From Spirochaetales bacterium (GTDB lineage: Bacteria; Spirochaetota; Leptospiria; Leptospirales; Leptonemataceae): a DNA stretch of 64,000 nt. Position 1 is the stretch's first letter. Each line of letters opens with the position of its first letter. Below the pieces are notes generated by a model that was given only the letters and a program-made list of their open reading frames with translations, searched no databases and was not told the DNA's origin. The stretch lies in the NCBI GenBank assembly GCA_015075425.1, contig JABTUL010000001.1, forward strand, positions 2,046,001 to 2,110,000. Direction: 5' to 3'. The translations under genes and the position numbers were made by a program. Shown one piece after another: positions 17,846 through 53,223 of this stretch.

Positions 17846-17847
17846 AG

Positions 17848-18654: not shown

Positions 18655-18672
18655 CTCTGAGTCAGTCAATGG

Positions 18673-19167
18673 CTACGCTCGCGACCTGAACTCATAGGCC
18701 GCAGCTAACCTGTCACAGAACTCCCGGACTGCACCGTAGCCTCCCCGCGTCTTCAAAACAAGCCGGGCGTGTGCTTTAACCTCAGGATAAGCATCGGCAA
18801 CGGCAACCGGACATCCAACCAATTGAAGGCAACCAAGATCGTTGACATCGTTTCCCACGTATGCCGTCTCATCGGGACGAATATCTCGCTCCTGCAACAG
18901 ATCCCGGAGTCGGGCCGCCTTGTCGGGAATTCCTTGTTCGCACTCTATCTGTAACTTTTCAGAACGCCGGGATACCACTGCATTGGTTTCAGTCGAAAGG
19001 ATTATAGCCGGAATTCCCAATTTTTTCAGCCTGGTGAGCCCGAGTCCATCGCTGCGACTGCAAATGACACTTTCGCGACCATCCTCTCCTACAATGACTC
19101 GATTATCCGTAAAGACGCCATCAAAGTCCAGCACAACAAACTTGACGACTGAAAGATCGAATTCCAT
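18673..19167 (-). CDS. KdsC-like HAD phosphatase
   Basis: 164 residues, the short C0-type HAD without a cap domain. Visible: VLDFDGVFTDNRV (nucleophile and acid Asp), ILSTETNAV (motif II), PDKAARL with the motif III Lys, and YVGNDVNDLGC (Mg-binding). The family cleaves Kdo-8-phosphate, KDN-9-phosphate or N-acylneuraminate-9-phosphate. It is 2 bases downstream of the synthase gene, which itself looks like the phosphorylated-substrate class. The pair should give a free nine-carbon (or related) 3-deoxy acid. This fixes the logic of module A as a phosphate-using pathway. Confidence 0.9.
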   Translation of the reverse strand: MEFDLSVVKFVVLDFDGVFTDNRVIVGEDGRESVICSRSDGLGLTRLKKLGIPAIILSTETNAVVSRRSEKLQIECEQGIPDKAARLRDLLQERDIRPDETAYVGNDVNDLGCLQLVGCPVAVADAYPEVKAHARLVLKTRGGYGAVREFCDRLAAAYEFRSRA

Positions 19168-19169
19168 CC

Positions 19170-20219
19170 TCAGTCATTCAGGTAATCGATATGAATCGAT
19201 TGATCGCAGGCCATCGGATGGACGATTTTACGACCAAGAACTGTCTCCAGCATGTATGGAGGTAAGCCATCGCCCGGAGACTTGATTGCAACATCCTCTC
19301 TGGTGAGAGTATGCCCCGCTTCCAGATCGCGAGCCGCTACAAGCTTCTTGCCCATTTTGATTAAAGGAGCAGCCTCCACCGGCTGGGTGACTTTGATGCC
19401 GTCCCCCAGAGCTTTACGCACCCTTTTCAAATCGCGGACAAGTTTTTTAAGTCCTATCGGCTCCAGAGAAAATGCGTGATCGGTGCCCTTCATCGCACGA
19501 TTGAGCGTAAAATGTTTTTCCATAACCCGCGCCCCGAGCACGAATGCGGCCGGCGCCATAGAGATACCGCTAAAATGGTCAGAAAGGCCGATCACCGTAT
19601 CAGGAAATCTCTCACGTAGAGTCGAAATTACCCGAAGATTCATTTCCTCCGGTTGCGCAGGATAAGATGCAGTACATTGCAGAATCGTGAAATTTTTATT
19701 GATCGGAGTCAGTGCTTCATAAACACGATCGATATCTTCCATTGTGCCACCACCTGTACTGATAACCAGTGGCTTTCCAAAGGCTGCGATGTATTTGATT
19801 AGTGGAATGTTCTTAAGATCACCGGATGCGATCTTGTATGCCGGCATGTCGAGCTTTGCCAGAAAATCAGCACTTGGAAAATCAAAAGCGGTTGAAAAAA
19901 AAGTAATACCAATCTCCTTTGAATAGGCCTGTAGCTCCCGGTATTCGCTTTCACCGAACTCAAGGAATTCCCGATGATCCCCGTAGGTAGCACCGAAACT
20001 ATTCGGATTGTCGTACGGTCGATGATAGTATTCACTGGTGAACAGCGCTCGGTTGTCCCGCTTCTGTAATTTTGCAGCATTGGCTCCGCAGTTTTTCGCG
20101 GCAAGAATCAGTTCTCTGGCCTGCTTAATATCTCCTTGATGATTGTGACCAATCTCTGCTATAACATAGCAGTCTGTTGAGTCATTTACTTCCAATCCGT
20201 CTATAACCAGTTGTCTCAT
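19170..20219 (-). CDS. neuB: NeuB-family synthase, NANS-like (9-phosphate type), first copy
   Basis: 349 residues: N-terminal TIM barrel plus C-terminal SAF domain (GDGLPPYMLETVLGRKI). It condenses PEP with an aldose or aldose phosphate. Several segments resemble human NANS as I remember it: RPYDNPNSFGATYGDHRE (NANS RPYTSKHSWGKTYGEHK), LQCTASYPAQPEEMNLRVIS, and KGTDHAFSLEP. NANS and KDN-9-P synthases use 6-phosphorylated hexoses, which agrees with the phosphatase next door. The ATG has AGGAAAG 8 bases upstream. The 26-base gap before it (20220-20245) is AT-rich and could hold part of a weak internal promoter, not resolved. Confidence 0.9.
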   Translation of the reverse strand: MRQLVIDGLEVNDSTDCYVIAEIGHNHQGDIKQARELILAAKNCGANAAKLQKRDNRALFTSEYYHRPYDNPNSFGATYGDHREFLEFGESEYRELQAYSKEIGITFFSTAFDFPSADFLAKLDMPAYKIASGDLKNIPLIKYIAAFGKPLVISTGGGTMEDIDRVYEALTPINKNFTILQCTASYPAQPEEMNLRVISTLRERFPDTVIGLSDHFSGISMAPAAFVLGARVMEKHFTLNRAMKGTDHAFSLEPIGLKKLVRDLKRVRKALGDGIKVTQPVEAAPLIKMGKKLVAARDLEAGHTLTREDVAIKSPGDGLPPYMLETVLGRKIVHPMACDQSIHIDYLND

Positions 20220-37849: not shown

Positions 37850-39679
37850 TCAGGACGACAAAATTAAATCTGCCGTCAGCTCACGCAGCGAATAGATCTC
37901 ATCAAGACGTTCTTTGATGAACCGTACCCACTCTTCTTTCCAGTGCAGCGATGTCCGGCCAAATTGCTGGCAAAAACCCTTTCTGGCCTGCTGAACTTCA
38001 TCGGAGTACCACCATTCCTGTACGGAATCCCATACGCCATTGACATGCGCCGCAGCTTCAACCGGGTCCTGGAACAATATTCGTACTGACTTGAGTTCTT
38101 TAAAATATGGCTCAGCTTCTTCACAGATCGCGAAAATGTTTTCACTCCAGAGGGCGACTGTCGGGCAATTCATAACCAGAGTATCAATTAAGGCAGTGGA
38201 CAAATGATCTATCACCAGGAGACGGGACTGGCTGAAGCGGGGACGCGGGTCCTCCGCGGCCCACTCCCAGAACCTGACAATACCCGTTTGATCTGTGATG
38301 ATCTGGCGATCGGCATGCCCGTAGTCGTGTGCATAACCGCGATAGACCAACTGCGATTTCACACCTCCATCCAGGGCATTGATGAAGGCAATTTTGGCAG
38401 CTGTATGCGCAGCATGCGTGTGCGCAAGCAAAGCAGAATGAAGGCGGTAATTGTATGCTGGATGCTCTGTTGAAAGGAAAACCAACTCAGTGCCCGCTCC
38501 CATTACGTGCTCCGGTAACATCGAAAGCTCTGGGTCCGGCAGGGGATAGAATTTGGCCTTGTAAGGACTGTGACCTGTCCAGCCCCAGGTGATGAAACCC
38601 GTAGGAGATTGATACTCAGCAGCCGCCAGGGGGAAAGCAGCGTAGTTTCCGTATCCACCTCCATGTTGCTGGCAATAGACGGACCCGCCTGCCTCGATAG
38701 TTTCGGCTTCTTCCACGCCGAACCCACCCGGTGTAATACGTATTCCGGGCAGGACAGCAGATTTCCGCAGAGGCAAGTGGTAAAAGGATTCGGGCAAATG
38801 GTGGCAGAGTAAGCCTGTTACCAGAGTTTCAAACCTGCCTCGCGGGGTAAAGGTTTGCCCAAGACGATTTTCTAAGGCCTTGCGATCACTCAGCCCTGCC
38901 GTGCGAATTTCTGCGGCGGGCTGGCGGACCATTTGCGAGGCCTGCAAGGCAATGTCCTTTGCGTCCTCTTTAGACATCCTGTACGGCTGTATATGGACAG
39001 GGGGAATGAGTCGCGCAGATGTGTTGCGTCCCCTGATCATCGAACGAACTGTTTGCTTTACCGTCCTCAGCACCACCGCTGACCAGTTCGACTCCCTTGC
39101 CCCATGGGATTCCGCAGTCCGCGACGGGAGTGGGTAACAAGAAAGCGAAGTACTCACCGGGACCAATTCAAAGTACGCAAAGTCCAGCCTATGCAATATT
39201 TCAGAAAATAAACACCAGTTAAACTCATGTGTGTACCAGTGTTTGAACAGAGCCTCGGGATTTTGCGCGATTTGCCCGAACTCAAAAGACCGACAGGTTT
39301 TGACCGAGAATCTTTCGCTACCGGAAGCGAAGGCTTCAAGATGCAGAAAACGGTCGTAAACGATGCCGAGCCAGGCATGGAACCAGTAGGCCAGGATTGA
39401 GGACCAGAATCTCGGAGCCTTATGAACACCGTAATGGACATTTAGCGCATGCCCGATAGGGACCATTAGCCTCTCCCGAAGATCTTCCAGATACTGTCCC
39501 GCCACGCGCAAGCGGGCCACCCATTCAGATCCGGTCCAGGGAGATTCTCCCAGGGAAAACCCATGCAGAAGATTGCTCGCCTCCTTTCTAAAGGCAAAGC
39601 ACCAGGGTCCCAGAAAGAGAGCGTTCTCTGGCTCTGCGGGCCACGTCTCCTCCATACCTGTCAGAACCAGTTCACGCAT
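37850..39679 (-). CDS. LIC12162-family transferase
   Basis: 609 residues from ATG 39679 (MRELVLTGMEETW), 5 bases after the previous stop. The early NALFLGPWCFAFRKE (FLGPWC) opening is the hallmark I associate with the LIC12162 putative transferase family first named in Leptospira. The C-terminal half looks like a capsule-type GT-B domain: RLLVIDHLSTALIDTLVMNCPTVALWSENIF. It is likely a glycosyl- or related transferase using the neighbouring activated sugar. This family name is also part of the evidence for a leptospiral host. Confidence 0.75.
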   Translation of the reverse strand: MRELVLTGMEETWPAEPENALFLGPWCFAFRKEASNLLHGFSLGESPWTGSEWVARLRVAGQYLEDLRERLMVPIGHALNVHYGVHKAPRFWSSILAYWFHAWLGIVYDRFLHLEAFASGSERFSVKTCRSFEFGQIAQNPEALFKHWYTHEFNWCLFSEILHRLDFAYFELVPVSTSLSCYPLPSRTAESHGARESNWSAVVLRTVKQTVRSMIRGRNTSARLIPPVHIQPYRMSKEDAKDIALQASQMVRQPAAEIRTAGLSDRKALENRLGQTFTPRGRFETLVTGLLCHHLPESFYHLPLRKSAVLPGIRITPGGFGVEEAETIEAGGSVYCQQHGGGYGNYAAFPLAAAEYQSPTGFITWGWTGHSPYKAKFYPLPDPELSMLPEHVMGAGTELVFLSTEHPAYNYRLHSALLAHTHAAHTAAKIAFINALDGGVKSQLVYRGYAHDYGHADRQIITDQTGIVRFWEWAAEDPRPRFSQSRLLVIDHLSTALIDTLVMNCPTVALWSENIFAICEEAEPYFKELKSVRILFQDPVEAAAHVNGVWDSVQEWWYSDEVQQARKGFCQQFGRTSLHWKEEWVRFIKERLDEIYSLRELTADLILSS

Positions 39680-39684
39680 GAAAC

Positions 39685-40422
39685 TCAGGCCGTCACCGGA
39701 GGGGGCCAGAGTTCTGCGTAAACTTTGCATACCTCGCTGGCATTGCGCGGATTCAGCCCTCTCGCGATTATGTTCTGCATCAGTGCTTCCATTCGGACAA
39801 AATCCAATTCCGTATCGATATCCAGCTTGATCCAGGGAAAACGAATTTCCGGGGGAGCCTCAAAAGTGCAACCGGCTCGTCCGGAAGTCTGGCGAACAAC
39901 TGCGGTTACGTGTTCTCGGTCTTCCGGACTCGCCTCCGGATAGCATTCCCTGAGCGCCTGTACGGAAACGATCTCTGCTCCCAGACCATCCGGATATCCA
40001 TTTCCCTCTGAGGGCACATGATTATAGGCATAGGCGTGATTGGATTTAGCATAAAAATTACAGAGGCGATCAATTTCATCGGGATTTACGAAAGGATTGT
40101 CAGCACATATTCTCAGAATAGTGTCGAAATTATACTGCCTGGCTGCTTCCAGAAAGCGGAGCATGACGTCTTCCAGCGGTCCGCGGTAAACCCGGACTCC
40201 CATCCTTGCCGCCAGTTCCGCCAGCGGGTCATCAGACCGATCGCGACTGGTCAAAAGATAGACCCCGGAGACAAGCGAAGCCAGGGCAACACTTTCCATT
40301 ACCCATTCCAGCAAGGGCTTCCCGCAGATCACGCGCAGTGACTTCCCCGGCAATCGAGTGGATAGCATGCGCGCCTGAACAAAGGCAGGATAGCGAGATA
40401 CACGGATTTGATGTTCTGGCAC
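39685..40422 (-). CDS. SpsF-like cytidylyltransferase
   Basis: 245 residues from GTG 40422, one base after the wzt stop; the longer frame into wzt is unlikely. AFVQARMLSTRLPGKSLRVICG is the SpsF/KdsB-related nucleotide-binding signature, then GVYLLTSRDRSDDPL, VYRGPLEDVMLRFLEAA and RICADNPFVNPDEID. SpsF-type enzymes are CMP-sugar transferases of spore-coat and NulO loci. It pairs with the LIC12162 gene 5 bases downstream. With 15623, 34337 and 60936 it makes four such enzymes. Confidence 0.85.
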   Translation of the reverse strand: MPEHQIRVSRYPAFVQARMLSTRLPGKSLRVICGKPLLEWVMESVALASLVSGVYLLTSRDRSDDPLAELAARMGVRVYRGPLEDVMLRFLEAARQYNFDTILRICADNPFVNPDEIDRLCNFYAKSNHAYAYNHVPSEGNGYPDGLGAEIVSVQALRECYPEASPEDREHVTAVVRQTSGRAGCTFEAPPEIRFPWIKLDIDTELDFVRMEALMQNIIARGLNPRNASEVCKVYAELWPPPVTA

Positions 40423-40423
40423 A

Positions 40424-41743
40424 CTATTCCACAAATGGTGCATCCGGATCCAGCCGAACAGTATTCCAATCTGCGGGAAACAGCAGCGGTCCCGCCCTTC
40501 CAGGCAGAAAGGTGGTGAGCTGTAGACTTTCTTCATCTCCCAGTTCTATCCTGAACTCAATTGCAGCATCCGGCTTGTCCATTGTCGTACTCTGTCCGCC
40601 GGAGATACCGGCCGCGCAGCGCAGCTCATACCGGGCTGCGGGAAGCCGCAGCGCCGGGATCGTAATGGTTGCCCTATACCGCCCCGGAAAATGGGTCTGT
40701 AGAGAAGGTTCCAGATCCGTGTCAGCCGAATGCAGGAGCCATTCACCATCCCGGTAAATAGTAAAATTTATCATCATGTTTTCTATGAGACGACGAGTTT
40801 CATATTCAAACACCAGGCGGAAGGACTCGTGGATGGTAAAACTATTGCGTGGCTGTCCGGATTCATCCAGAATAGACATTCTCAGAAACTGGAAGTCTTG
40901 TTCGGGCTTGACCGGGAATTGAACGATCGCCGATTCCGTTTCCAGCTCGCTCTGTTCGGCGAGCATATTCTTGTAGGATTCAATTACTTCACCCGGCGCT
41001 CCGCGAGCAACGATCCGTCCATCGTGGAGCAGGATCAAACGAGTGCAGAGTTTTTTTATAGAAGACATATTATGACTGACAAAAAGCACCGTCCGGCCTC
41101 TGCCACTGGCTTCCCGCATTCGCCCCAGACATTTCTTCTGGAATGCGGCATCACCAACGGCCAGAACCTCATCGACAATCAAGATTTCTGAATCCAGATG
41201 GGCAGCGACGGCAAAAGCCAGGCGCACATACATACCGCTCGAATAACGTTTAACCGGGGTGTCTATGAAATCCTCAACTTCTGAAAAGTCCACAATTTCG
41301 TCAAACTTCCGACTTACCTCGCTTCTACTCATCCCCAGTATTGCCCCATTGAGAAAAACATTCTCACGTCCCGTGAGTTCTGGATGAAAGCCTGTTCCGA
41401 CTTCAAGTAGACTGGCAATACGACCGCGCATGCGAACAACTCCCCGGGTCGGTACAGTAATTCTGGACAGGATTTTTAACAGCGTCGATTTCCCCGCACC
41501 GTTGCGGCCAATAATACCCAGTATCTCGCCATTGTCTACGGTTAGCGAAACATCACTCAGCGCCGACAATACCTGTCCTGGGCCAATACGATGCTTCTCA
41601 ATGCCCACCACAAGACTGTTGGGATCTTCCAGCCCACGCAAGCGGGCCCACCAGCTTTCGATATCCTGCCTGAGAGTGCCATAACCGATGGTGCCAAGGC
41701 GGTAGTCTTTAGACACCGAGTCTATTTCAATTACAGGATCCAT
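40424..41743 (-). CDS. wzt: O-antigen ABC exporter ATPase Wzt with carbohydrate-binding domain
   Basis: 439 residues. ATPase: IIGRNGAGKSTLLKIL (Walker A), YSSGMYVRLAFAVAA (signature with the SSGM form of O-antigen exporters), ILIVDEVLAVGDAAF (Walker B), VLFVSHNMSSI (switch His). Residues about 285-439 form an extra C-terminal beta domain (LRMSILDESGQPRNSFTI...) typical of Wzt_C, which binds the finished glycan end in systems such as E. coli O9a. This suggests chains are completed in the cytoplasm and recognised by a terminal cap. Follows wzm by 2 bases. Confidence 0.93.
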   Translation of the reverse strand: MDPVIEIDSVSKDYRLGTIGYGTLRQDIESWWARLRGLEDPNSLVVGIEKHRIGPGQVLSALSDVSLTVDNGEILGIIGRNGAGKSTLLKILSRITVPTRGVVRMRGRIASLLEVGTGFHPELTGRENVFLNGAILGMSRSEVSRKFDEIVDFSEVEDFIDTPVKRYSSGMYVRLAFAVAAHLDSEILIVDEVLAVGDAAFQKKCLGRMREASGRGRTVLFVSHNMSSIKKLCTRLILLHDGRIVARGAPGEVIESYKNMLAEQSELETESAIVQFPVKPEQDFQFLRMSILDESGQPRNSFTIHESFRLVFEYETRRLIENMMINFTIYRDGEWLLHSADTDLEPSLQTHFPGRYRATITIPALRLPAARYELRCAAGISGGQSTTMDKPDAAIEFRIELGDEESLQLTTFLPGRAGPLLFPADWNTVRLDPDAPFVE

Positions 41744-42624: not shown

Positions 42625-43278
42625 TTATAATTTCTTACCAACAAAATGCAACATTTCACGGTTTCCCAGCTGCGCATCACGCTCAATGCATTCATATTGC
42701 CGGGAAAAATAGGATTCAAAGTAATCTGACATAACTCTAGCATTGGGAAACCGGTCTATTCCGTAGAAAGGGGTCGAATCAGGAAAAGTCTGCGACACGT
42801 ACAGCATTCCGCCTGGAGCGATCAGCATCGCCAGATTGCTCATGAATTGTGGAAGATCGTCCAGAATATACCACATCAACTCTTTTGAAAGCACCATATT
42901 GAAAGGCCCTCCCAAATTCTTGAGCAGCGCCCCAATTTCACCCGAATCCAATATATTGGCCCGTGCAAACGTGATGCCGGCATGCATGGCACGTGCTTTA
43001 TCAATGGCTGTTGCGGAAATGTCCACACCAGCAACAAAACCGATACCGGTCGATTTTTCCGCGTTAACTCTCGCAGTAAAATATCCTAAACCACAACCCA
43101 ATTCTAAAAAGCGCCCCGGCCGAAAATTGCGCACAATAGCCAGCGTTATATCGGAAAGAAGCCATCGGGCGGTTTCGTCTTGATGCCACGGGACTTCCCC
43201 GGCATTACGGTACATTTCCTCGAAGAGACCGACAAACCTCCCGTCTCTAAAGACATAGTCCCTGTAGTCAGAACTCAA
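42625..43278 (-). CDS. SAM-dependent methyltransferase next to Wzm
   Basis: 217 residues. RFLELGCGLGYFTARVN (SAM loop), VAGVDISATAIDKARAMHAG, ARANILDSGEIGALL, FNMVLSKELMWYILDDLPQFM and LIAPGGMLYVSQTF. NodS/TPMT-like class I fold. The TTG start overlaps the upstream stop (TTGA). Its place directly before wzm-wzt suggests it could cap the chain with a methyl group read by the Wzt C-terminal domain, by analogy with known capping systems; not proven. Confidence 0.8.
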   Translation of the reverse strand: MSSDYRDYVFRDGRFVGLFEEMYRNAGEVPWHQDETARWLLSDITLAIVRNFRPGRFLELGCGLGYFTARVNAEKSTGIGFVAGVDISATAIDKARAMHAGITFARANILDSGEIGALLKNLGGPFNMVLSKELMWYILDDLPQFMSNLAMLIAPGGMLYVSQTFPDSTPFYGIDRFPNARVMSDYFESYFSRQYECIERDAQLGNREMLHFVGKKL

Positions 43279-44396
43279 CTTTCTGCTCGCAGACTTATCA
43301 CCTTCTGGATTCCGCCGGCTATTTGGGCGGCGTATCCGGGGCCAACCTGATTATCGACCCAGAAATTAAGAATGTGGTCTCCAATGGCTGCGGCAATCGG
43401 TGTCTTACAGAAGGGTTCTTTAGCGGTTTCGAGAAAATTACTTACCGGCGGAAACCAACTGCTCACCGGAATTTTCCTTTCCAGGAAGAAGTTCAGGATG
43501 TCATTTCGAAAAGGCTTCCCGCGCTCTTTACTCACTAAAACGGAAAGGCGCCAGGGAACAGCCCCTGCTGTCAAAGGACAGACTTCCAGATCCGGCAACT
43601 CCGCAAGGGTTTCACTCAAACCTGCGTAGCGCTGCCGGCGCTCATTTAAGTTTTGATCCAGTTCCGCGAGCGAGCGCGCTATAGATTCTACCCGTGATGA
43701 ATCGAAGCGAAATTCCATGCTGGACCGGACCGAGAGGGCCAGAGGTCGAAAAATTGCGCCCGCTTCAGATAAATCCTGCCCAACATAGCGATTGTAAATC
43801 TGAGTATGCGTCATTGATAGATTTCCTAATTTTTGCAGCATACTTTCTGAAAGAGATGGTAGTCCTTCAACTTGATCCTTTATATTACGTTCTATAGCCG
43901 GCTCATCAAAGAGGAGCGCCCCACCATGTCCCGCGGATACAATCTTACCGTGGCCAAAGCTGAACACGGAGAAAACGCCAGTTTTACCCACCGATTTTCC
44001 ACTGATCGTGGCACCCAAAGCTGCAGCACAATCCTCAATCAAAGGAACTCCTCCTTTGGCACAGACATTCTGAATCATCTGCATATCGCATGGATTTCCA
44101 TATGCGTGAACGGCGATGAGTGCGGCCGGCATATGGGCCAGCGTCGAAACATCGACCCCCATGGTTCGAGCATCGACATCCAGGTACACCGGGAAGTTGC
44201 CGGAAAAATATACGGCCAGTGGAACATTGTAGCACACATTATTGGGCAGAGCTACTGGCTGGCCGGAAAAACCAAGGGAGCGGATGGCCAGCGACAGTGC
44301 GGTTGTACCATTACCCACGAGGTAACAGTACCTGCGACCGGTTAATTCCCGCAAAAAACCAGAAATCCAGTCAACAGTCGGATAATATTTATTCAC
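43275..44396 (-). CDS. DegT/DnrJ/EryC1-family aminotransferase, short N-terminus
   Basis: 373 residues from a GTG at 44396 that overlaps the radical SAM stop by 8 bases. PLP landmarks: VGNGTTALSLAIRSL, PLIEDCAAALGA and SVFSFGHGKIVSAGHGGAL with the Schiff-base lysine. The lysine loop FGHGKIVSAGHGG differs from the usual TTGEGG form, and the usual N-terminal residues are replaced by YYPTVDWISGFLREL. A divergent sugar aminotransferase. A non-amino-transfer role (some homologues dehydrate at C3) is possible. Confidence 0.8.
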   Translation of the reverse strand: MNKYYPTVDWISGFLRELTGRRYCYLVGNGTTALSLAIRSLGFSGQPVALPNNVCYNVPLAVYFSGNFPVYLDVDARTMGVDVSTLAHMPAALIAVHAYGNPCDMQMIQNVCAKGGVPLIEDCAAALGATISGKSVGKTGVFSVFSFGHGKIVSAGHGGALLFDEPAIERNIKDQVEGLPSLSESMLQKLGNLSMTHTQIYNRYVGQDLSEAGAIFRPLALSVRSSMEFRFDSSRVESIARSLAELDQNLNERRQRYAGLSETLAELPDLEVCPLTAGAVPWRLSVLVSKERGKPFRNDILNFFLERKIPVSSWFPPVSNFLETAKEPFCKTPIAAAIGDHILNFWVDNQVGPGYAAQIAGGIQKVISLRAES

Positions 44397-45483
44397 CTAT
44401 AGTCTGGCTTCGATTAAGATAGTTCTCAATCACAAAAACTCTACCATTAATCGTAGCCGATTCATTGCTCTCAGTTTTGCGCGGGTAGTAACATTTCTTA
44501 CATGGATTTATTTCCATAAATCCATTCTTCTTTTTTTGTTGTTCGCGGATCGCTTGCATTGCGTCCCCGTGCCAGATACTGTGAATTGATTCTTGATGTG
44601 CATCGCCTAAAACGACTTCAACATTATCATCATTGCTACACAATGCAACCGTCCCATTTGCACTTATTGTGATCCTTTCGTATTGCTGAGGGCAGACGAA
44701 ACTATCCTCATAAACTATATTGGTGTCATTGTGTAAATAATCAATCAGAGGATTGTAAGCTATTAAATCGGTTATCGGTGCAAAAATATTGTAGAATTCC
44801 TCAGCGCGATCTCTCACTGCAGGCCAGACTCCCTGTATCTTAATTACAGGCTTCTGCAGCCCATGCTCCTCTTTGTAGGCTGCAATCCTTTGCAATTTTT
44901 TAACTGTATCACGAAATTTCAGAGGTGCCCGAATCCGGTCGTAGATCTCATCCATTCCATCTATAGAAATAGTAATCCAATCCACACCGGCGGTCTGCAG
45001 TTGAATGAAATACTCCAATTCCAGCTTCCATCCGTTCGTCAGAAATGATACCTCCTGTATTCCTTTCTCTTTGGCGTAGCGTACTACATCTACCAATTTC
45101 TTGTGGAGTGTGGGTTCGCCCACCCAGCTCAGCCGCAGAGCATAGACTTTGCCTGCGATCTCGTCAATAATACGCTTCGCCAGGTCTGCATCCATTAATC
45201 CTTTATTGGCTTTACTGGACCTTTGATGAATAAACTCCGAGGTGGTTGTTGGACACATCGGACACTTCAGATTGCAGACTGACGCCATCTCAAGGTCCAC
45301 CAGCAGAGGATAGTCGCGTACTATTTGCTTTTCAGGGAGCTCCCGCCACATTCGCCGGTAATCGGCATACTCCGTCTCCCAACCCGAACCTAATTTTTTA
45401 GCAAAGGCAGCAATCCTCTCCGGCGGTTCAAGCTCAAAGTGACCCTTATTAATCGGAATATACTTTTCTTGATTCTCTTCCAT
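44389..45483 (-). CDS. Radical SAM / SPASM-like enzyme
   Basis: 364 residues. EMASVCNLKCPMCP holds the CxxxCxxC cluster site. LRLSWVGEPTLHKKLVDVV is the GGEP-like SAM region, and VSFLTNGWKLEL and ITISIDGMDEIYDRIR are typical core strands. The C-terminal part has CPQQYERITISANGTVALCSNDD and NPCKKCYYP, a SPASM/twitch-type auxiliary cluster. In sugar loci these can dehydrogenate or epimerise sugars, or act on peptides. Codon use looks more AT-rich than the neighbours. Coupled to the FemAB-like gene upstream (TAATG). Confidence 0.85.
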   Translation of the reverse strand: MEENQEKYIPINKGHFELEPPERIAAFAKKLGSGWETEYADYRRMWRELPEKQIVRDYPLLVDLEMASVCNLKCPMCPTTTSEFIHQRSSKANKGLMDADLAKRIIDEIAGKVYALRLSWVGEPTLHKKLVDVVRYAKEKGIQEVSFLTNGWKLELEYFIQLQTAGVDWITISIDGMDEIYDRIRAPLKFRDTVKKLQRIAAYKEEHGLQKPVIKIQGVWPAVRDRAEEFYNIFAPITDLIAYNPLIDYLHNDTNIVYEDSFVCPQQYERITISANGTVALCSNDDNVEVVLGDAHQESIHSIWHGDAMQAIREQQKKKNGFMEINPCKKCYYPRKTESNESATINGRVFVIENYLNRSQTIGE

Positions 45484-46463
45484 TACGAAGACCCTCCCAT
45501 GCTTACCTCATAGTAAGGTAGCAAATTGCCGCCAAAACTTAACTTGAACCATCCACGCGCCGGACTGTTCACACCTTCAAGGTCAACCTCTGAAATACTG
45601 TTCTTTGCCAGATCCCTGAACGCATGCCACAAAACAGCAGTACCGGAGTAGTCGTCGGAGCGATCGCTTTCCAATGCTCCAAACAAATAATACGCTCTCT
45701 TAGCATCCCAGCCAAACAAAGCAGCAGCCCTGAACCCACTCTCATCACGAATGCAGTATAGCCGACCCTTATTTGATTCAAGTAACTGCCTTGTTATCGA
45801 ATTAACTTGTTCCATTTTTTTCCCTGTCACGGTTACACCTTGCCTCAAAAAGACAGATCTGTAAAGATTAAGGAAGGGAGGGACTTCTGCCGCCACCTCT
45901 ACTATAGTATTGTTCTGGCGCGCCCTCCTTAAACTCTGGCGCCTTTTTCCATCCATCCTCAGGGCAACAGGCGATTTTTCGAAATCAACATCGGGATGCA
46001 AATCTGAAATATCCAGATAACTTGTATACCTTACAGATACGCTGAATCTCCGCCTAGCATCACTACTCCCATAGTTGTACCATAGATAGGGCCGAACGTC
46101 AACCAGCTGCGGGGCCAGCGCCATTGCTACCGAAGAAAATTTCTCAGTCAGAAAGGCAATGATGCACTCCTGGATACGAAAGCGCTCTGAAATCACTCCG
46201 TTTGCTTTTTGATTGGCCCGCTCTGATGCAAATATTGGCCCGTTGTAAATAACCATATCGTCGAGACAGCATCCACCCGTCCCATCAAGAACTATGCTGA
46301 ATGCTCCCCGGCAGTCGGATCCGGCAAGGACCCAGAATCTTAAATATTCACAAAGCGACGATTTTAGATAAAAACTTAACGAGAATAGACTTCCCTGAGG
46401 GGAAGCTTCAACAAATTGATCCCAGTGCTCATCTGATTCGACAGGCTCGATTGCGAATTCCAT
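45483..46463 (-). CDS. FemAB/GNAT-like acyltransferase
   Basis: 326 residues. Two GNAT-like halves; the second has YRSVFLRQGVTVTGKKMEQVNSI, YCIRDESGFRAAALFGWDAKRAYYLFGA and SGTAVLWHAFRDLAKN, then EVDLEGVNSPARGWFKLSFGG. This resembles Acetyltransf_6/FemAB-type proteins that transfer acyl or aminoacyl groups to cell-surface sugars. Possibly adds an acyl or amino-acid substituent to an amino sugar; inference. ATG at 46463; one-base overlap with the radical SAM gene. Confidence 0.75.
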   Translation of the reverse strand: MEFAIEPVESDEHWDQFVEASPQGSLFSLSFYLKSSLCEYLRFWVLAGSDCRGAFSIVLDGTGGCCLDDMVIYNGPIFASERANQKANGVISERFRIQECIIAFLTEKFSSVAMALAPQLVDVRPYLWYNYGSSDARRRFSVSVRYTSYLDISDLHPDVDFEKSPVALRMDGKRRQSLRRARQNNTIVEVAAEVPPFLNLYRSVFLRQGVTVTGKKMEQVNSITRQLLESNKGRLYCIRDESGFRAAALFGWDAKRAYYLFGALESDRSDDYSGTAVLWHAFRDLAKNSISEVDLEGVNSPARGWFKLSFGGNLLPYYEVSMGGSS

Positions 46464-46478
46464 ATCAGAATTTACGAT

Positions 46479-47834
46479 TCAATTTGCACTACACAATCCT
46501 TGCTTCTCGAGTTCCAGAGCTATGGAATAAAGTTGATCAAACGGTACGCCCGAGCGCTCAGCCATAGAGAGCAATGAATGTTCACCATCAGCAAGAAAGA
46601 GAAACCAGGTAATTGCATCGACCGGATCGGCCTGCCGGGGAGTTAGCACGTCGCTAGTGCCGTCTTCTATTTTATCACCTTCCCCGGCCGCCGATTGTTT
46701 CAATGCTCCGCCTGTTTGTGGATAAAGACCCCGGCGGCCCAACTGTACTTCACCATTGGGGTTTAAGGAACGGAAGGTGGACTCCTTTTCCAGCTTTTGA
46801 ATACAGGACCAGTAAAGTCGCAATGTGCTGACCAGGTTTTGAGGAGTGACAAAAGACAAATCATCCAGGGAGGTATGATAAAAGGAATACTCATAGTATT
46901 TATCCCTGGTAATTGATGCGACAGGAATGCGAAACCCTGGGGAAGAATACTGCCGCTCATCGCTTCCGTCCGGAGCAAACGGATACTCGACAGGCTCAAC
47001 GGTGTATTCACGCATAGTTTGCCTGATCACCCGATCAATCAGATGATTCCCCTGGAAAGTGGTCTTGAAGCCAAATGGACCCGGCCCGGCACAGGTGGTA
47101 ACGACAAAGCCGCCGGAGCTCTGGCGCATGATGCTCTCATGGTGTGCTAGATAAGCAATCGCACCGATGGTTTCCGGCAAAATCAGAAATCGGTAACTTT
47201 TATTCAGTTTTAAACTTTGATTCATCAGGCGGTGCAATAACGTAGTAAGTACGACACCGGACAAATTGTCATTGGCCATTGAGGGATGACAACAGTATGT
47301 TGATACTAAATATTCATTGCTCTCTGGTGGACCAATGATGGATTCCAGTAAACTCAGACTTCCGGGTGCAAGTGTTGCATCAATAAAAACTTCGAAGGTG
47401 TCCGACTGATCTAGCTGTCCTAGCTGACGGTCTGTCAGACAGAAGCCCCAATTTCTACTGTAGTATGAGGTCCGGTAAGGAATGGCATCCGGCAGAGATG
47501 GGAGGCTGTGCAGATGGGGCCTGAGTTCATCAAAGGACAGGCGCTTATGAAATGGTTCACTGTATCCCATGACATGAAGATTATTTTTGCGGAAGGAGAC
47601 GATTTCCCTTCCGCTCGAATCCTTGATCCATGCGTCAGAAATATTCCACTCATCCGGGATTTGCCAGTCAAAGCACTGCGTTCCCGATGGATACTCGACC
47701 AGGTTAAATTCTGTATATTCCTGAATGATTGCGAGACTTTCTCGCAGTCCATTTCCTGTGATACTTCGACATATCGGAAAGAGCCGCGTGAGGAGCTCTT
47801 CTGCCAGTCTTTCCTGTTCGTCCCAGTTAATCAT
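46479..47834 (-). CDS. M28-like aminopeptidase-fold protein (DUF4910/DUF2172 type)
   Basis: 451 residues. Middle region has the zinc-ligand pattern of M28 peptidases: CCHPSMANDNLSG (His and Asp), LILPETIGAIAYL (Glu), APDGSDERQYSSPG (Asp) and YEYSFYHTSLDDLSF (His). The C-terminal 70 residues look like a winged helix (AITWFLFLADGEHSLLSMAERSG). Such proteins are repeatedly found in polysaccharide and NulO loci, but their substrate is not settled; amide hydrolysis on an acyl-amino sugar is one idea. TGATG overlap with the synthase gene upstream makes a linked function likely. Confidence 0.8.
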   Translation of the reverse strand: MINWDEQERLAEELLTRLFPICRSITGNGLRESLAIIQEYTEFNLVEYPSGTQCFDWQIPDEWNISDAWIKDSSGREIVSFRKNNLHVMGYSEPFHKRLSFDELRPHLHSLPSLPDAIPYRTSYYSRNWGFCLTDRQLGQLDQSDTFEVFIDATLAPGSLSLLESIIGPPESNEYLVSTYCCHPSMANDNLSGVVLTTLLHRLMNQSLKLNKSYRFLILPETIGAIAYLAHHESIMRQSSGGFVVTTCAGPGPFGFKTTFQGNHLIDRVIRQTMREYTVEPVEYPFAPDGSDERQYSSPGFRIPVASITRDKYYEYSFYHTSLDDLSFVTPQNLVSTLRLYWSCIQKLEKESTFRSLNPNGEVQLGRRGLYPQTGGALKQSAAGEGDKIEDGTSDVLTPRQADPVDAITWFLFLADGEHSLLSMAERSGVPFDQLYSIALELEKQGLCSAN

Positions 47835-48895
47835 CAGGAAAGGAGAACGTCCTGCCAGGTAAGGATATGATCCTTCTCAAGAGATCCGGTGGCCTTAAGT
47901 CCAATGATCTCATCCCAATGCACCGGGGAAATTCCGAAGGCCGGCCTCTTGAATGTCAGGTGAGACTCCGTAATAACCTCACCCGCCTCTATTCTTTTCT
48001 GCACCACAATGGAACGCCTTGCATTGCGCCGGCTCAGTTGCTCAGAATCGATGGGTTGTTTCAAAAGGTTGCCTTTGACGGAATAGAACCGGTCCAGATT
48101 CGCCCGAAACGTCTTTAGATCCAGGACATCCATCGCATGGTAATGGTCGTTTCCCGGGAGTGATTTGTCATGAGTGAAGTGCTTTTCGATGATGCGCGCG
48201 CCCATGGCCACAGCCGCAGTCAGAACAAACATGGTTGTATCCGGGTGCGTGTGATCAGAATAACCGACGATATGATCGGGGAAAACACGTGCCAGGTCAT
48301 TCATCATGCCAAGGTGCGCATTGCCATCCTGACAGGGATAATTCAAAATACAATGCATAAGGGCAATATCTTTTGCGCCGGCCTGCTTAAGCGTCCGAAT
48401 CGCCCACTCTATCTCCGCTATGCTGCTACAACCCGTTGATAGAACCACCGGTTTACCTGTAACGGCTACAGCGCGGAGAAGCGGCGTCACTGTAATGTCT
48501 GCCGAGGCTATTTTAAAGAAGGGCATCCAGGGATCAAGAAAACTGACTGAAGCCAGATCAAAAGGCGTCGAAAGAAAATCTATTCCTACAATGGAACAAT
48601 ATTTTGCAAGTTCCTCGTATTCTGTCTGTCCAAAGCTATCATGCTTTTTAAATAATTCGAATTGGGATAGCGTGGGCTCCCTGGTAGTATCCCAGTAGGC
48701 CGGTGAATTGCGCGATGCCAGGGTTTCTGCTTTGTAGGTCTGAAATTTTGCCGCATCCGCTCCCCCTTCTTTAGCCAGATCTATCAGGTGACGGGCCGTC
48801 TCCAGGGACCCTTCATGATTAACCCCAATTTCAGCAATGATATAAGGACGTGAATCTTCCCTGATTTCCCTGGATCCTAAAATAATACGTTTCAT
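47834..48895 (-). CDS. neuB: NeuB-family synthase, second copy (class unclear)
   Basis: 353 residues: TIM barrel plus SAF domain (RSIVVQKRIEAGEVITESH). Visible: YIIAEIGVNHEGSLETARHLI, AAKFQTYKAETLAS, FLSTPFDLASVSFLDP, FKIASADITVTPLL, VVLSTGCSSIAEIEWAI, VGYSDHTHPDTTMF and IIEKHFTHDKSLPGNDHYHAMD. It makes a 3-deoxy-ulosonic acid from PEP, but it has neither the NANS RPY...GxTYG insert of copy 1 nor the LDRNLPGPDHAASLEP text of copy 3. Flanked by the M28-like gene and the KdnA-like aminotransferase, so it probably makes their substrate. Confidence 0.88.
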   Translation of the reverse strand: MKRIILGSREIREDSRPYIIAEIGVNHEGSLETARHLIDLAKEGGADAAKFQTYKAETLASRNSPAYWDTTREPTLSQFELFKKHDSFGQTEYEELAKYCSIVGIDFLSTPFDLASVSFLDPWMPFFKIASADITVTPLLRAVAVTGKPVVLSTGCSSIAEIEWAIRTLKQAGAKDIALMHCILNYPCQDGNAHLGMMNDLARVFPDHIVGYSDHTHPDTTMFVLTAAVAMGARIIEKHFTHDKSLPGNDHYHAMDVLDLKTFRANLDRFYSVKGNLLKQPIDSEQLSRRNARRSIVVQKRIEAGEVITESHLTFKRPAFGISPVHWDEIIGLKATGSLEKDHILTWQDVLLS

Positions 48896-48903
48896 TTTTA
48901 AAT

Positions 48904-50091
48904 CTAATTTTCCTTGCGTAGCTCGTCCATAGCTTCCCTGGTGACTGCAATCATCTCATTAAATTCCTCTTCGCTCTGCCAGTGATGAAATGGAAAGGAA
49001 AGCATAGAGTCAAAAAATCGATCGGTTTGGGGACATCTGGCCTCACCAAAGCCGGCCCGCTGAAACATAGGATATCGGTATAGCGGATAGTACTGCACCA
49101 CCGGCTTCACTCCTTTTTCGCGGAACAACTTTCTTATCAAAGCGTCACGCCCTGAGGGTCCATCGTAACGGGCAGGCAGGAGATGATGAACATGACCACA
49201 GCCTTCCAGCGCTTTTTGAAAAACAAGTTCCGGGAAGTCAGCCATTGCCTCTCTGAATCGCCTGGCCTTGGCACTGCGACCCGCATTCATTTGATCGAGC
49301 CGATCAAGAAGTTTGCTGGCGAGCGCACACTGAACTTCCCCCAGACAGAAATTGTATGGCCATACTCCCACGAGATCAAAGTCTACGTCGCTCATGGCCG
49401 GCAGCCAGTAATCTTCCCGCTCTCCGGTAAAGGCGCGCATGCCGTTGTGTCGCAGTCCTGGAACAAGCCGGGCGTGCTCGCTACTTTTCACAAGCAGGGC
49501 CCCACCCTCGCCGAGGGTCGTCATATTTTTATGGGTATGAAAACTAAAGCAACCAAAGTCTCCGATGGAACCGACTTTCCGGCCTCGATAACTGGCTCCG
49601 GGGGCCTGGGCTGCATCTTCTACTATCAGGAGCCCGTATTTTCTGGCAAGCTCCACGATGGGATCCATATCGCAAGACATTCCATACAAGTGCACAACGA
49701 TAACGACCCGGCTGCGCTCGTTAATTAAGGGCTCAATTGTCTTTGCATTGACGAGAAAAGTGTCCGGATCTATGTCGGCCCAGACAATCCGTGCGCCTGT
49801 GCGCGCAAAAGGAATCACGGTCGCAGCGAAGGTATGCGCGGGCGCAATGACCTCATCACCTGGTTTCAGGCTACAGAGCAGCGCACTCAGCTCCAGAGCA
49901 GCAGTGCAACTGGAGACAGCGAAAGCATGCGAGGCCCCTGCATAATCGGCAAAGTCCTTTTCAAACTGAGTCTGGTATTTGCCCTGGGTTAATGGGTCCC
50001 CGTTGCGCATGACGCGCACCACGGTCTCCACCTCTTCATCAGAATAGAGATGACCGCGCCCACTCCAATTCACCCGAATCACTGGCTGCAT
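48904..50091 (-). CDS. kdnA: KdnA-like PLP aminotransferase (DegT family)
   Basis: 395 residues. Starts VIRVNWSGRGHLYSDEEVE; PLP landmarks AVSSCTAALELSALL, IVEDAAQAPGA and CFSFHTHKNMTTLGEGGALL with the Schiff-base lysine. Together with the iron alcohol dehydrogenase at 50771 it matches the KdnA/KdnB pair that converts Kdo into 8-amino-3,8-dideoxy-octulosonate (Kdo8N). Here it sits by a NeuB, so the amine could be put on a nonulosonate instead. Symbol is by context and is tentative. ATG is 2 bases after the GT2 stop. Confidence 0.75.
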   Translation of the reverse strand: MQPVIRVNWSGRGHLYSDEEVETVVRVMRNGDPLTQGKYQTQFEKDFADYAGASHAFAVSSCTAALELSALLCSLKPGDEVIAPAHTFAATVIPFARTGARIVWADIDPDTFLVNAKTIEPLINERSRVVIVVHLYGMSCDMDPIVELARKYGLLIVEDAAQAPGASYRGRKVGSIGDFGCFSFHTHKNMTTLGEGGALLVKSSEHARLVPGLRHNGMRAFTGEREDYWLPAMSDVDFDLVGVWPYNFCLGEVQCALASKLLDRLDQMNAGRSAKARRFREAMADFPELVFQKALEGCGHVHHLLPARYDGPSGRDALIRKLFREKGVKPVVQYYPLYRYPMFQRAGFGEARCPQTDRFFDSMLSFPFHHWQSEEEFNEMIAVTREAMDELRKEN

Positions 50092-50093
50092 CT

Positions 50094-50765
50094 CTATTCT
50101 TTCCCCGAAGATCCCGGATGCTTTTCTGATAAAAGTCGCGCATGCAGATCCATGTGTTCTGTGTCATTTGTCATATTATTTTGATGGCGACGGTACCTGT
50201 AGAGTGGTAATTCCAGTCTGTGGATCCGAAATTGTCGCTCAAAACGATATCTGAGATCACGATCCTCATGCGCCAGGAAACGATCATCATAGAGACCGAC
50301 TTGAATCAATTGGTCCATTCGAAACATGATTCCACATCCAATGGGTTTCTCTAGGCAGTTGCAACGCTCAAGAACGTTCTCCGCATCATCCACCAGGAGG
50401 TAATCACAGGCAACTGCATCCATATACGGATTTTCAGAAAGAAAACGCTCCATGATGTACAGGAAATTCGAATTCACGTAATCATCACCATCGAGCCGAA
50501 CGAGGTACTGGCCCCGAGCAATCCTTATTCCCCGGTTGAGGGAGGCCGGGAGGCCCTGCTGGACGGGGTTTGAGATGATTCTAATTTCATCCTGGAATAA
50601 CTCCAGGGCATACGCTGTGCGGTCTTCACTCGCATCATTGACCACTACGATCTCGAACGACTCTCGAGGGAAGTTTTGATTAAGTAAGGACCGGAGGCAG
50701 CGACCAATGTATTTCTCTTCATTTCTGGCTGCGATGAGGACCGTTACTTCCGGCGTTCTCTGCAT
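50094..50765 (-). CDS. GT2-family glycosyltransferase, short
   Basis: 223 residues. [70 protein letters not shown] (DGDD is the DxD) and [13 protein letters not shown] for the acceptor/base region. Compact GT-A, at the short end for GT2. It lies between the KdnA-like and KdnB-like genes, so it may attach the module-B sugar, but GT2 enzymes rarely use CMP-ulosonates, so another donor is as likely. Confidence 0.82.
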
Positions 50766-50770
50766 AATGG

Positions 50771-51910
50771 TTACATTCGAGAAAAAAGTTTCAAAACTCG
50801 ATCGCGAGTCAGTACGGACCGAAAATCAGCCCCAAGAGCATTCGCCAGGGGTTTCTCGTGAATTATCGTTCCCTGGTAAAGTTTTTCCGCGATCTCAGTG
50901 TCCATGCTCGAACAAATCCCGTGCGGTAAAGTTATGGAATTCCGGATAAGCATTCTACGAAATTGCGTAACTGCTTCCGGATAGAACTCCTCCATCGTGT
51001 CCATGACAATGCAATTCGCCAAACAATGGTGGATACCATAGGCTACCGTCAGGCCAGCTGAAAATGGATGGACAACTCCCACCAGACTATTAGCAATCGC
51101 ACTACCTCCAAGGTAAGAGGCTACCATCAGCCGTTCCCGATTTTGCTCACTCTGCATATCCTCTGCACTCGTATCAAAAACCTCGCTGCAAAGCCGGAGG
51201 GCCTCCCGGGAATAGGCGTCCGCCACCGCATGACGGTGGTGCCCGTGCAATGACTCGACACAGTGAATGAAAGTATCCATCCCCGTAAAAAAATACTGAT
51301 CACGAGGAACTGTTCGGGTCAGCTCCGGATCCAGCACCAGGTGGTCAAAAAGGGAGTAGTCGCTATTCATCCCCATTTTTAAATTCTTCCGCGCATTGAT
51401 CAGAACGCATGTTCGCGATGCTTCTGCACCTGTGCCTGAAATTGTCGGGATTCCAATCTTGTAAACGCCTGGACTTTTGAGGAGATCCCAGCCCTGGTAA
51501 TTTTCTGCTCTCCCTCCGTTTCCAAGCAGGTTCGACACTGCTTTGGCCGTATCGAGGGCACTCCCACCACCAATTCCGATTATCGCTACCGGCTTTTCTT
51601 GCCCGTACCGAGCTTCATATTCGGTCACAATGTTGTCTATTCCTTCAGTCGAAGGCTCGTGAGCTGAATCGCAAATCACCAGATGGTTTCTAGCCTGCGA
51701 CGAGAGTCTGTCACGGAGATTTGAATCCTGAAAGAAGATATCAAGGATCGTGATACAGGATCCGATCCCGGAGAGGTATTCATCAAAATACTCTAAAAAT
51801 TTAGTAATTGATCCGCGACCGAAGGTATAGCCCGGAACATTTCTGGTCCCGACCATACTATGCACAGTCAACCGCGTGGTTCGTTGCCCAGGGGCTTGTG
51901 ATATTTCCAT
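50771..51910 (-). CDS. kdnB: KdnB-like iron-containing alcohol dehydrogenase
   Basis: 379 residues, group III Fe-ADH. Visible: [20 protein letters not shown] (NAD site), [58 protein letters not shown] and [10 protein letters not shown] with the metal ligands, and [16 protein letters not shown]. These fit Kdo 8-oxidase KdnB as I remember it, more closely than butanol-type ADHs. It would oxidise the terminal hydroxymethyl of a 3-deoxy-octulosonate (or nonulosonate) to an aldehyde for amination. First gene of module B; 5 bases before the GT2 gene. Confidence 0.78.
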
Positions 51911-51915
51911 ATGGA

Positions 51916-53223
51916 TTAAAATCGGCCCTGTTGCCCGATTACGCTCTCCACTTCATCAAAAACAATTTCCCATGTTTTTCTCTCCGGTGTCCCGGGCTTT
52001 TTAATGTAGCGCCGAACAAAAGCGGAATAGACCTCTTCATCTACACGCATCTCAGACTCCCAGTCGATCTGCTCGGGGCTGGTTCGATCAAGGTTGATGG
52101 GTTTTTTTCCCAGAGAAAGAGCAAGGCCGTACGTCGCATCACGTTCGGCCGGTAAGCGTTCATACTCGTCTGTTATCAGGATCACAACGGGTTTCTGATA
52201 AAGAACGGCGTAGCACAGTGAAGTGCTGTCGTGGCCCAGAATCAAACTTGCGGTTCTGGCCAATGAAACCGAATTCTGCGTTTGTGGCGGATAATCCGGT
52301 AGATATTCTCGGATGCGCTCCGGCGAACCATCTGGGTGCGTAGTTTTTATTACCTGATATCCGAATCGTTTCTCAATAAAACGAAAAAGATTGTGCAGTA
52401 GAGCGTAGTAATGCCGCGGCTCAAGCGTTACCGCAACACCATATTGTTCAATAAAGGGGAGCGACTGACCAAAGAAAGCCGCCACAGGGTCTCTGCGGGC
52501 CTCTCCGTTCTCATCAATAACGTCATCATACAAAGGCATATGCGTCCAGAGGATCTTTGTTCGTTTCCCTACCGGAAAAGCAGTCGGGTATTGCATGAGT
52601 GTTGCATTCGGACCGCGGGAAACCCAGAACAACGGTCCCTGCAAACGCAAAAGACCCCGGCGATAAAGGAAAACCGCCGGATGTTGCCGCAAGGATGGGG
52701 GGATCTGTATCAAAGTGAAAATTCCTTTTATCCCTCCTCGCCTCCATGCATCAATCCATCTACCGGCCAATCGGCGAATCATCCGTTTATGAATGGGCCC
52801 TACCCCTGGCGGTTCTGCCAGAGGCAACAGTTCCCGCTCCCCCGGAATATCTCCAAGACCCGTTATGCCAACACCATAGGGAATGCGGAGCCTGTCGATA
52901 AATCGATAGATTCGCAGCGTTCGGGCATCTCCTTTCTCAAGGGAATCCCAGAAATGGCAATAAATAAAAGTGTTTTTTCTATCCAATGATTCCAAAGCCT
53001 GGAACAGGGATTTCTCATGCTCAAAGTGGAATACCTCATTGAAGGTTTCGTCAGGTTCTCTGAGAATACCATACATTCGCAAACAGCAAAAAATACGAAA
53101 GCTAAATCCTCGCTCCCTTATCAAGGGTATATTATACGAATGATTACGAAGTCGCGCCGTCACCGGCCGGTCCGTCACAACCACGATTTCCTTTCCGGAG
53201 GCAGACTGTTCCGGTGATTTCAA
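51916..53223 (-). CDS. Probable capsule-type glycosyltransferase
   Basis: 435 residues, family uncertain. Starts at TTG 53223 overlapping the hisH stop (TTGA); a GTG eight codons on is possible. The C-terminal half looks like a GT-B donor domain: YQVIKTTHPDGSPERIREYL, TASLILGHDSTSLCYAVLYQKPVVILITDEYERL. The GHDSTSLCYAVLYQKPVV segment resembles Capsule_synth/polysialyl-type transferases (SxSxxxxA...P). Several enzymes of this kind use CMP-activated ulosonates, which would suit the modules on both sides. Donor is inference. Confidence 0.6.
   Translation of the reverse strand: MKSPEQSASGKEIVVVTDRPVTARLRNHSYNIPLIRERGFSFRIFCCLRMYGILREPDETFNEVFHFEHEKSLFQALESLDRKNTFIYCHFWDSLEKGDARTLRIYRFIDRLRIPYGVGITGLGDIPGERELLPLAEPPGVGPIHKRMIRRLAGRWIDAWRRGGIKGIFTLIQIPPSLRQHPAVFLYRRGLLRLQGPLFWVSRGPNATLMQYPTAFPVGKRTKILWTHMPLYDDVIDENGEARRDPVAAFFGQSLPFIEQYGVAVTLEPRHYYALLHNLFRFIEKRFGYQVIKTTHPDGSPERIREYLPDYPPQTQNSVSLARTASLILGHDSTSLCYAVLYQKPVVILITDEYERLPAERDATYGLALSLGKKPINLDRTSPEQIDWESEMRVDEEVYSAFVRRYIKKPGTPERKTWEIVFDEVESVIGQQGRF

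Follow-up and report, generated by a model that had tools for sequence, protein, structure and literature searches.

We analysed a 64,000-nucleotide stretch of a Spirochaetales genome (GenBank assembly GCA_015075425.1, contig JABTUL010000001.1, positions 2,046,001 to 2,110,000; hereafter the window), which carries on its minus strand a gene module, named module B, that probably makes a cytidine monophosphate (CMP)-activated ulosonate with an amine on its terminal carbon. The module is a real, conserved and new combination of known kinds of enzymes. Its alcohol dehydrogenase (ADH) resembles KdnB, the 3-deoxy-D-manno-octulosonic acid (Kdo) 8-oxidase that, together with the aminotransferase KdnA, turns Kdo into 8-amino-8-deoxy-Kdo (Kdo8N), and it is encoded beside an aminotransferase and a NeuB-type synthase. 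A preliminary description of this DNA had proposed amination of the terminal carbon of a nonulosonate, giving a new sugar; this stays the best reading and is largely supported, the sugar being predicted from the genes and its nine carbons assumed. The core genes are as follows:

50771–51910, minus strand: KdnB-superclade Fe-dependent ADH, predicted to convert a terminal CH2OH to an aldehyde (structure matches, tree and metal ligands)
50094–50765, minus strand: short GT2 glycosyltransferase (PF00535), a conserved cassette member with about 54–62% identity in relatives
48904–50091, minus strand: DegT-family aminotransferase of its own clade, not KdnA, in the place of a KdnA relative; predicted to aminate the aldehyde
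47834–48895, minus strand: NeuB-family ulosonate synthase of a distinct subclass (PF03102 and SAF; pocket signature)
46479–47834, minus strand: DUF4910/DUF2172/HTH_47 protein (COG4310 type), predicted to modify the amino-ulosonate

These are intact open reading frames (ORFs), as first described, packed head to tail into a tight operon with intergenic gaps of 2–8 bases, and the one-base overlap of the NeuB and DUF4910 genes reported earlier is seen (TGATG). Their Pfam matches are Fe-ADH, Glycos_transf_2, DegT_DnrJ_EryC1, NeuB with SAF, and DUF4910 with DUF2172 and HTH_47. The GT2 gene had gone unmentioned, and the unit extends past 46479, running on via a GNAT, a radical S-adenosylmethionine (SAM), a second DegT and a methyltransferase gene to 42625, colinear with the Methylovulum locus L014. 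The transcription order is 435-residue protein, Fe-ADH, GT2, DegT aminotransferase, NeuB, DUF4910, GNAT, radical SAM/SPASM, second DegT, methyltransferase, Wzm and Wzt.

In the pathway that we propose, the NeuB-type synthase (47834) would join phosphoenolpyruvate and a free aldose into an ulosonate, the KdnB-type dehydrogenase (50771) would oxidize its terminal CH2OH, and the resulting aldehyde would be converted to an amine by the aminotransferase (48904). The same product could also arise if the ADH/aminotransferase pair worked on the aldose ahead of NeuB. An SpsF-type cytidylyltransferase (39685) would form the CMP-sugar, the N-acyl group would be adjusted by DUF4910, GNAT (or formyltransferase) and partner proteins, and the GT2 or a LIC12162-family protein would add the sugar to a surface polysaccharide, for which Wzm/Wzt would serve as the ABC exporter. 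If the NeuB uses a six-carbon substrate, as is usual, a 9-amino-9-deoxynonulosonic acid would result; to our knowledge, no such relative of sialic acid has been isolated.

The dehydrogenase and its sub-clade

Compared with solved structures, the window ADH scores 283 bits against 3rf7 and 274 bits against KdnB (5k8c), versus 109 bits for the next Fe-ADH. The tree places it in one clade with KdnB, and a long branch parts both from methanol-type Fe-ADHs, which bears out the earlier view of a KdnB-like enzyme rather than a butanol-type ADH. The KdnB sub-clade (5k8c, 3rf7 and the loci L017 and L092; support 99/100) leaves the window ADH outside, and the latter shares 41.5% identity with KdnB versus about 50–55% with most of its cassette relatives. 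As judged from these comparisons, the enzyme belongs to the KdnB superclade, in a separate sub-clade. The metal ligands are conserved (D212, H216, H281, and H295). A comparison of the window-type sub-clade with the four sequences of the KdnB side shows fixed differences at eight positions, of which four (271, 282, 285, and 296) flank the metal histidines in sequence, with Tyr264 of KdnB facing Ala285 in the window.

The window ADH is the only copy in its genome at the limit used. Because a single further genome out of 345 in the phylum yields a relative (E ≤ 1e-60), the data suggest that the gene was acquired from outside the phylum; a plasmid search with the window ADH gave no match. Close relatives are found in Nitrospinota, Actinomycetota, Campylobacterota, Chlorobiota, and Alpha- and Gammaproteobacteria.

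Linkage to one NeuB subclass across phyla

In Actinomycetota, Campylobacterota, Chlorobiota, Pseudomonadota, and the phylum of the window itself, the window-type ADH has a NeuB of one and the same subclass beside it. A synthase of this subclass lies within a few genes of the ADH in 36 of the 38 annotated loci with enough downstream sequence by our count, which leaves out L007 and several others that end too soon. Of 201 Ilumatobacteraceae genomes, 31 have the ADH and 28 the NeuB; both occur in 24, the ADH only in seven and the NeuB only in four (Fisher p = 6e-21). In each of the four NeuB-only genomes, the contig breaks off at the KdnA, GT2 or NeuB gene or immediately upstream of it, and those ADH-only loci that were read stop short of NeuB or hold just its beginning. 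The ADH/NeuB arrangement is thus far beyond chance, and the synthase belongs to the same unit as the dehydrogenase, as had been claimed, rather than to an unrelated one. At the KdnB-sub-clade locus L017, no NeuB was found within 10 kb.

The window NeuB possesses the PF03102 and PF08666 (SAF) domains and remains below the curated cut-offs of both N-acetylneuraminate synthase (TIGR03569, 328 versus 400 bits) and pseudaminate synthase (TIGR03586, 238 versus 340 bits). It keeps the catalytic residues, the equivalents of Glu25, Gln55, His236, Asp247, and Arg314, the last of which contacts the N-acetyl group of N-acetylmannosamine (ManNAc) in the Neisseria NeuB (PMC6795526). The subclass carries a signature composed of C-[IV]-L-N-Y-P (Neisseria positions 182–187) and G-N-D-H-Y-H-A (245–251), which is invariant in all 28 subclass sequences compared. 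The same positions read CTNIYP/GPDIVCS in the ManNAc-using NeuB and CVAKYP/GADHSFA in SpsE, and the two other NeuBs of the window have CTSQYP/GPDHAAS and CTASYP/GTDHAFS. Since the subclass has its own invariant pocket signature, its acceptor sugar is likely to differ. The NeuB tree has long branches and leaves the position of the subclass relative to NeuB, SpsE, and LegI unsettled.

Two aminotransferase clades with the same partners

The window aminotransferase had been taken for a KdnA homologue, and this assignment did not hold. It matches KdnA (5k8b) with 122 bits, far down a list whose best match reaches 199 bits, shares 29% identity with it, and falls in a different DegT clade, together with the enzymes of L013, L092, L007, and L010 (100/98); its identity to the L013 counterpart is 67%. 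PseC is its top NCBIfam model, below the cut-off. The identification as KdnA was therefore rejected, and the label "KdnA-like" is, on this phylogeny, valid at the superfamily level only.

A KdnA relative directly follows the ADH in Actinomycetota, including Ilumatobacteraceae (L008, L009, L011, L015, and the loci among L063–L081 that reach this gene), and in Methylovulum L014. The L008 enzyme has 5k8b as its best match, with 272 bits versus 157 for the next one, and the KdnA relatives of the Actinomycetota and L014 cassettes are 40–43% identical to KdnA and sister to it at 99/99. The gene order is ADH-GT2-aminotransferase in the window and L013, and ADH-aminotransferase-GT2 in the cassettes with a KdnA relative. 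The finding of two distinct aminotransferase clades alongside the same ADH and synthase is the strongest indication that the pair would perform a KdnB/KdnA-like oxidation and amination; the exchange of one clade for the other points to a single aminated product.

Proposed modification, activation and transfer

The product of 46479–47834, previously described as M28-like, is a member of the known DUF4910/COG4310 family (3k9t match, E = 5e-103) that has been argued not to be a peptidase. In the alignment, the positions of the M28 catalytic Asp and Glu are occupied by Ser and Pro, as in 3k9t, and with these residues (named in PMC4000134) replaced, an M28 peptidase was rejected. For the family protein CA_C2195, a role in modified carbohydrate synthesis instead of peptidase action was argued (PMC4000134), and Cj1295, of the same family, is required to make an N-acyl form of pseudaminic acid, the di-O-methylglyceroyl one (PMC3068675). 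By analogy, the window protein is predicted to modify the amino-ulosonate.

Further genes of the unit, and two downstream of Wzm/Wzt, are the following:

45483–46463, minus strand: Acetyltransf_6 GNAT-like acyltransferase (PF13480), colinear in L010, L012, L014, L144, and L145
44389–45483, minus strand: radical SAM/SPASM protein, colinear in the same five loci (52–60%)
43275–44396, minus strand: second, divergent DegT-family protein, colinear in L014 (36%)
42625–43278, minus strand: methyltransferase, colinear in L014 (37%)
39685–40536, minus strand: SpsF-type cytidylyltransferase, a KdsB relative (NCBIfam KdsB models, 53 bits), with about 35–42% identity to the SpsF adjoining NeuB in many relatives
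37850–39730, minus strand: LIC12162-family transferase (TIGR04331, 303 bits; cut-off 225)

The DUF4910-GNAT-radical SAM series of the window recurs in the five loci named, and L014 is colinear through the methyltransferase. In nearly all complete loci outside the window, the SpsF-type cytidylyltransferase adjoins NeuB; L016 has it fused to NeuB, and L014, L069, L075, and L132 to DUF4910, the last three fusions being called by length and match. The enzyme encoded at 39685 is the probable CMP-activating enzyme, by this kinship, and the module probably takes it in as well; the start of its ORF overlaps Wzt, and the true start probably lies inside the ORF. A 25–26% relative of the LIC12162-family protein directly follows SpsF in L072, L129, and L130, making this protein a candidate transferase for the CMP-sugar. 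A formyltransferase comes after the SpsF-DUF4910 fusion in L069, L075, and L132 (PF00551 in L069) and fits a free amine; the presumed roles of DUF4910 and formyltransferase would both suit N-acylation of an amine.

In Campylobacterota, Chlorobiota, and one gammaproteobacterium, the place of the GT2 is taken by a PseG-like protein (TIGR03590, 120–126 bits; cut-off 153.6). Among complete cassettes, the GT2 and this PseG-like GT-B protein are mutually exclusive, as if interchangeable: the former is found in the window, L008, L009, L013, L014, and L063–L081, the latter in L010, L012, L016, L093, L094, L097, L098, L144, and L145.

Kdo and the alternative readings

Several points weigh against terminal amination of a NeuB-made ulosonate. 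At L096, the ADH stands without a NeuB, and this seems to hold for L095 too, whose contig ends 1 kb on after an opposite-strand gene. In L092, which comes from the family of the window's organism, a KdnB-sub-clade ADH is combined with a different NeuB, and the Chlorobiota loci L012, L144, and L145 have the ADH and NeuB with no aminotransferase adjoining. The window CMP-transferase lies about 7 kb downstream of NeuB instead of adjoining it, and KdsA is present in five of the 30 Ilumatobacteraceae carriers. The gene identities, clades, cross-phylum linkage, aminotransferase exchange, and NeuB signature are observed; the enzyme activities and the sugar are predicted from these genes. We infer all reactions, the order of the first three steps, the aldose, the chain length, and the stereochemistry, and the nine carbons are an assumption.

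An unlikely alternative is that the pair makes Kdo8N from ordinary Kdo and that the NeuB makes an unrelated second sugar whose genes share the operon. The nearest characterized enzyme is indeed KdnB, and the window's genome has KdsA, but across phyla the ADH is almost without exception linked to one NeuB subclass, and it forms a sub-clade apart from KdnB, from which it differs at fixed positions close to the metal site. Moreover, KdsA was not found in 25 of the 30 Ilumatobacteraceae carriers, many of which are partial metagenome assemblies; its absence as a clean rule for carriers was rejected, given the five carriers that have it. KdsA and this NeuB are both kept in the window's genome (G000) and in Campylobacterota, Chlorobiota, and Alpha- and Gammaproteobacterial carriers (G064, G066, G067, G068, and G070). 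Because most Ilumatobacteraceae carriers have no detected KdsA and KdsA-bearing carriers keep the NeuB, Kdo seems an unlikely substrate of the pair, and the simplest account is that the NeuB supplies this substrate.

The NeuB could also use a pentose to form an octulosonate (Kdo or one of its isomers), providing a KdsA-independent route to Kdo8N or an epimer. Relatives of KdnA and KdnB would then retain their known substrate, many carriers are without detectable KdsA, and the NeuB pocket is unlike that of the ManNAc-using NeuB; yet the six Kdo-making genomes just listed keep this NeuB, and known NeuB enzymes use hexoses. We consider this route improbable, and Kdo8N from a dedicated precursor, which the preliminary description had offered as an alternative, is less likely than terminal amination of a NeuB-made ulosonate. 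A third possibility, which seems very doubtful, is that oxidation and amination by the pair take place at a secondary hydroxyl within the ulosonate or within its precursor, so that the amine would sit at an internal carbon, as in legionaminic and pseudaminic acid. In its favour, ketosugars are the substrates of most DegT aminotransferases, PseC is the top model noted above, and the PseG-like hydrolases of some cassettes suggest a UDP-sugar precursor, but KdnB and its partner KdnA act on a primary alcohol, and it is KdnA relatives that partner the ADH in Actinomycetota.

Extending the terminal-amine reading beyond the window is a more tentative step: the cross-phylum cassette (KdnB-like ADH, aminotransferase, NeuB subclass, and SpsF) could make an undescribed class of terminally aminated nonulosonic acids of the 9-amino-9-deoxy type, N-acylated via DUF4910, GNAT or formyltransferase, including in small-genome Actinomycetota mostly without detectable KdsA. 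In the literature that was searched, no terminal-amino nonulosonate, natural 9-amino-9-deoxynonulosonate or KdnB-NeuB cluster was found.

Comparison with known systems

The cassette resembles the KdnA/KdnB pathway of Shewanella oneidensis (5k8b and 5k8c) in coupling a KdnB-superclade Fe-ADH to a DegT aminotransferase, in its KdsB-related cytidylyltransferase and, in Actinomycetota and Methylovulum, in a true KdnA relative. It differs in the separate sub-clade of its ADH, in the window aminotransferase, which is not KdnA, and in nearly always having a NeuB instead of relying on KdsA, which is undetected in many carriers. With the NeuB/LegI/PseI pathways it shares a NeuB-SAF synthase, a CMP-sugar synthetase, acyltransferases and, in some cassettes, a PseG-like protein, whereas it has no conserved NeuC, PseB/C or LegB/C set and possesses a distinct NeuB pocket signature and an extra oxidation and amination pair.

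Among known bacterial sialic-like sugars, most variation is at carbons 5, 7, and 8. If the proposal is right, surface sugars would gain a new class, charged or N-acylated, through amination of the last carbon by a conserved route, and a function would be given to an unnamed NeuB subclass and to the sister clade of KdnB. The poorly understood DUF4910 proteins would likewise be placed in a defined pathway. The window protein has the same three-domain architecture, metal-site residues, and non-peptidase substitutions as CA_C2195 (3k9t) and Cj1295, and CA_C2195 is encoded beside NeuB/SpsF-type genes in C. acetobutylicum (PMC4000134); in contrast to both, the window DUF4910 is linked to a KdnB-type ADH, and in several relatives DUF4910 is fused to the CMP-transferase. 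The motifs GNDHYHA and [IV]LNYP in a NeuB beside a KdnB-type ADH form a direct search signature for producers, and the compact cassettes of L008 (five genes) and L010 (Sulfuricurvum, eight genes) could suit reconstitution.

Additional observations

In G503 (Actinomycetota), one of the five Ilumatobacteraceae carriers with KdsA, where Kdo synthesis is unexpected, KdsA (G503:C5:61956-62717) is on the same contig as the cassette (G503:C5:25338). One Ilumatobacteraceae subgroup has additional genes upstream of the cassette (L081:10098-12751, minus strand; same place in L066, L069–L079 except L072, and L135–L137). They encode an HpaI-type aldolase, a Gfo/Idh oxidoreductase, and an inositol-phosphatase-family protein, which may supply the sugar precursor.

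Just upstream of the window ADH, 51916–53223 (minus strand) encodes the 435-residue protein, which has no Pfam or NCBIfam match and a poor structure prediction (predicted local distance difference test, pLDDT, 51); a 33% identical homologue is present in the same neighbourhood of G011 (L092:2064-3491). At L092:5732-7978, a NeuB fused to a CBS domain and a xylose-isomerase-like TIM barrel lies beside a window-type aminotransferase, a NeuA-like gene, and the KdnB-sub-clade ADH.

The window holds a third, differently composed ulosonate module at 13680–20219 (minus strand), with a NeuB (19170), a CMP-transferase and, assigned by eye, HAD/KdsC-like, SDR, aldehyde-dehydrogenase-like, and transketolase-like proteins.

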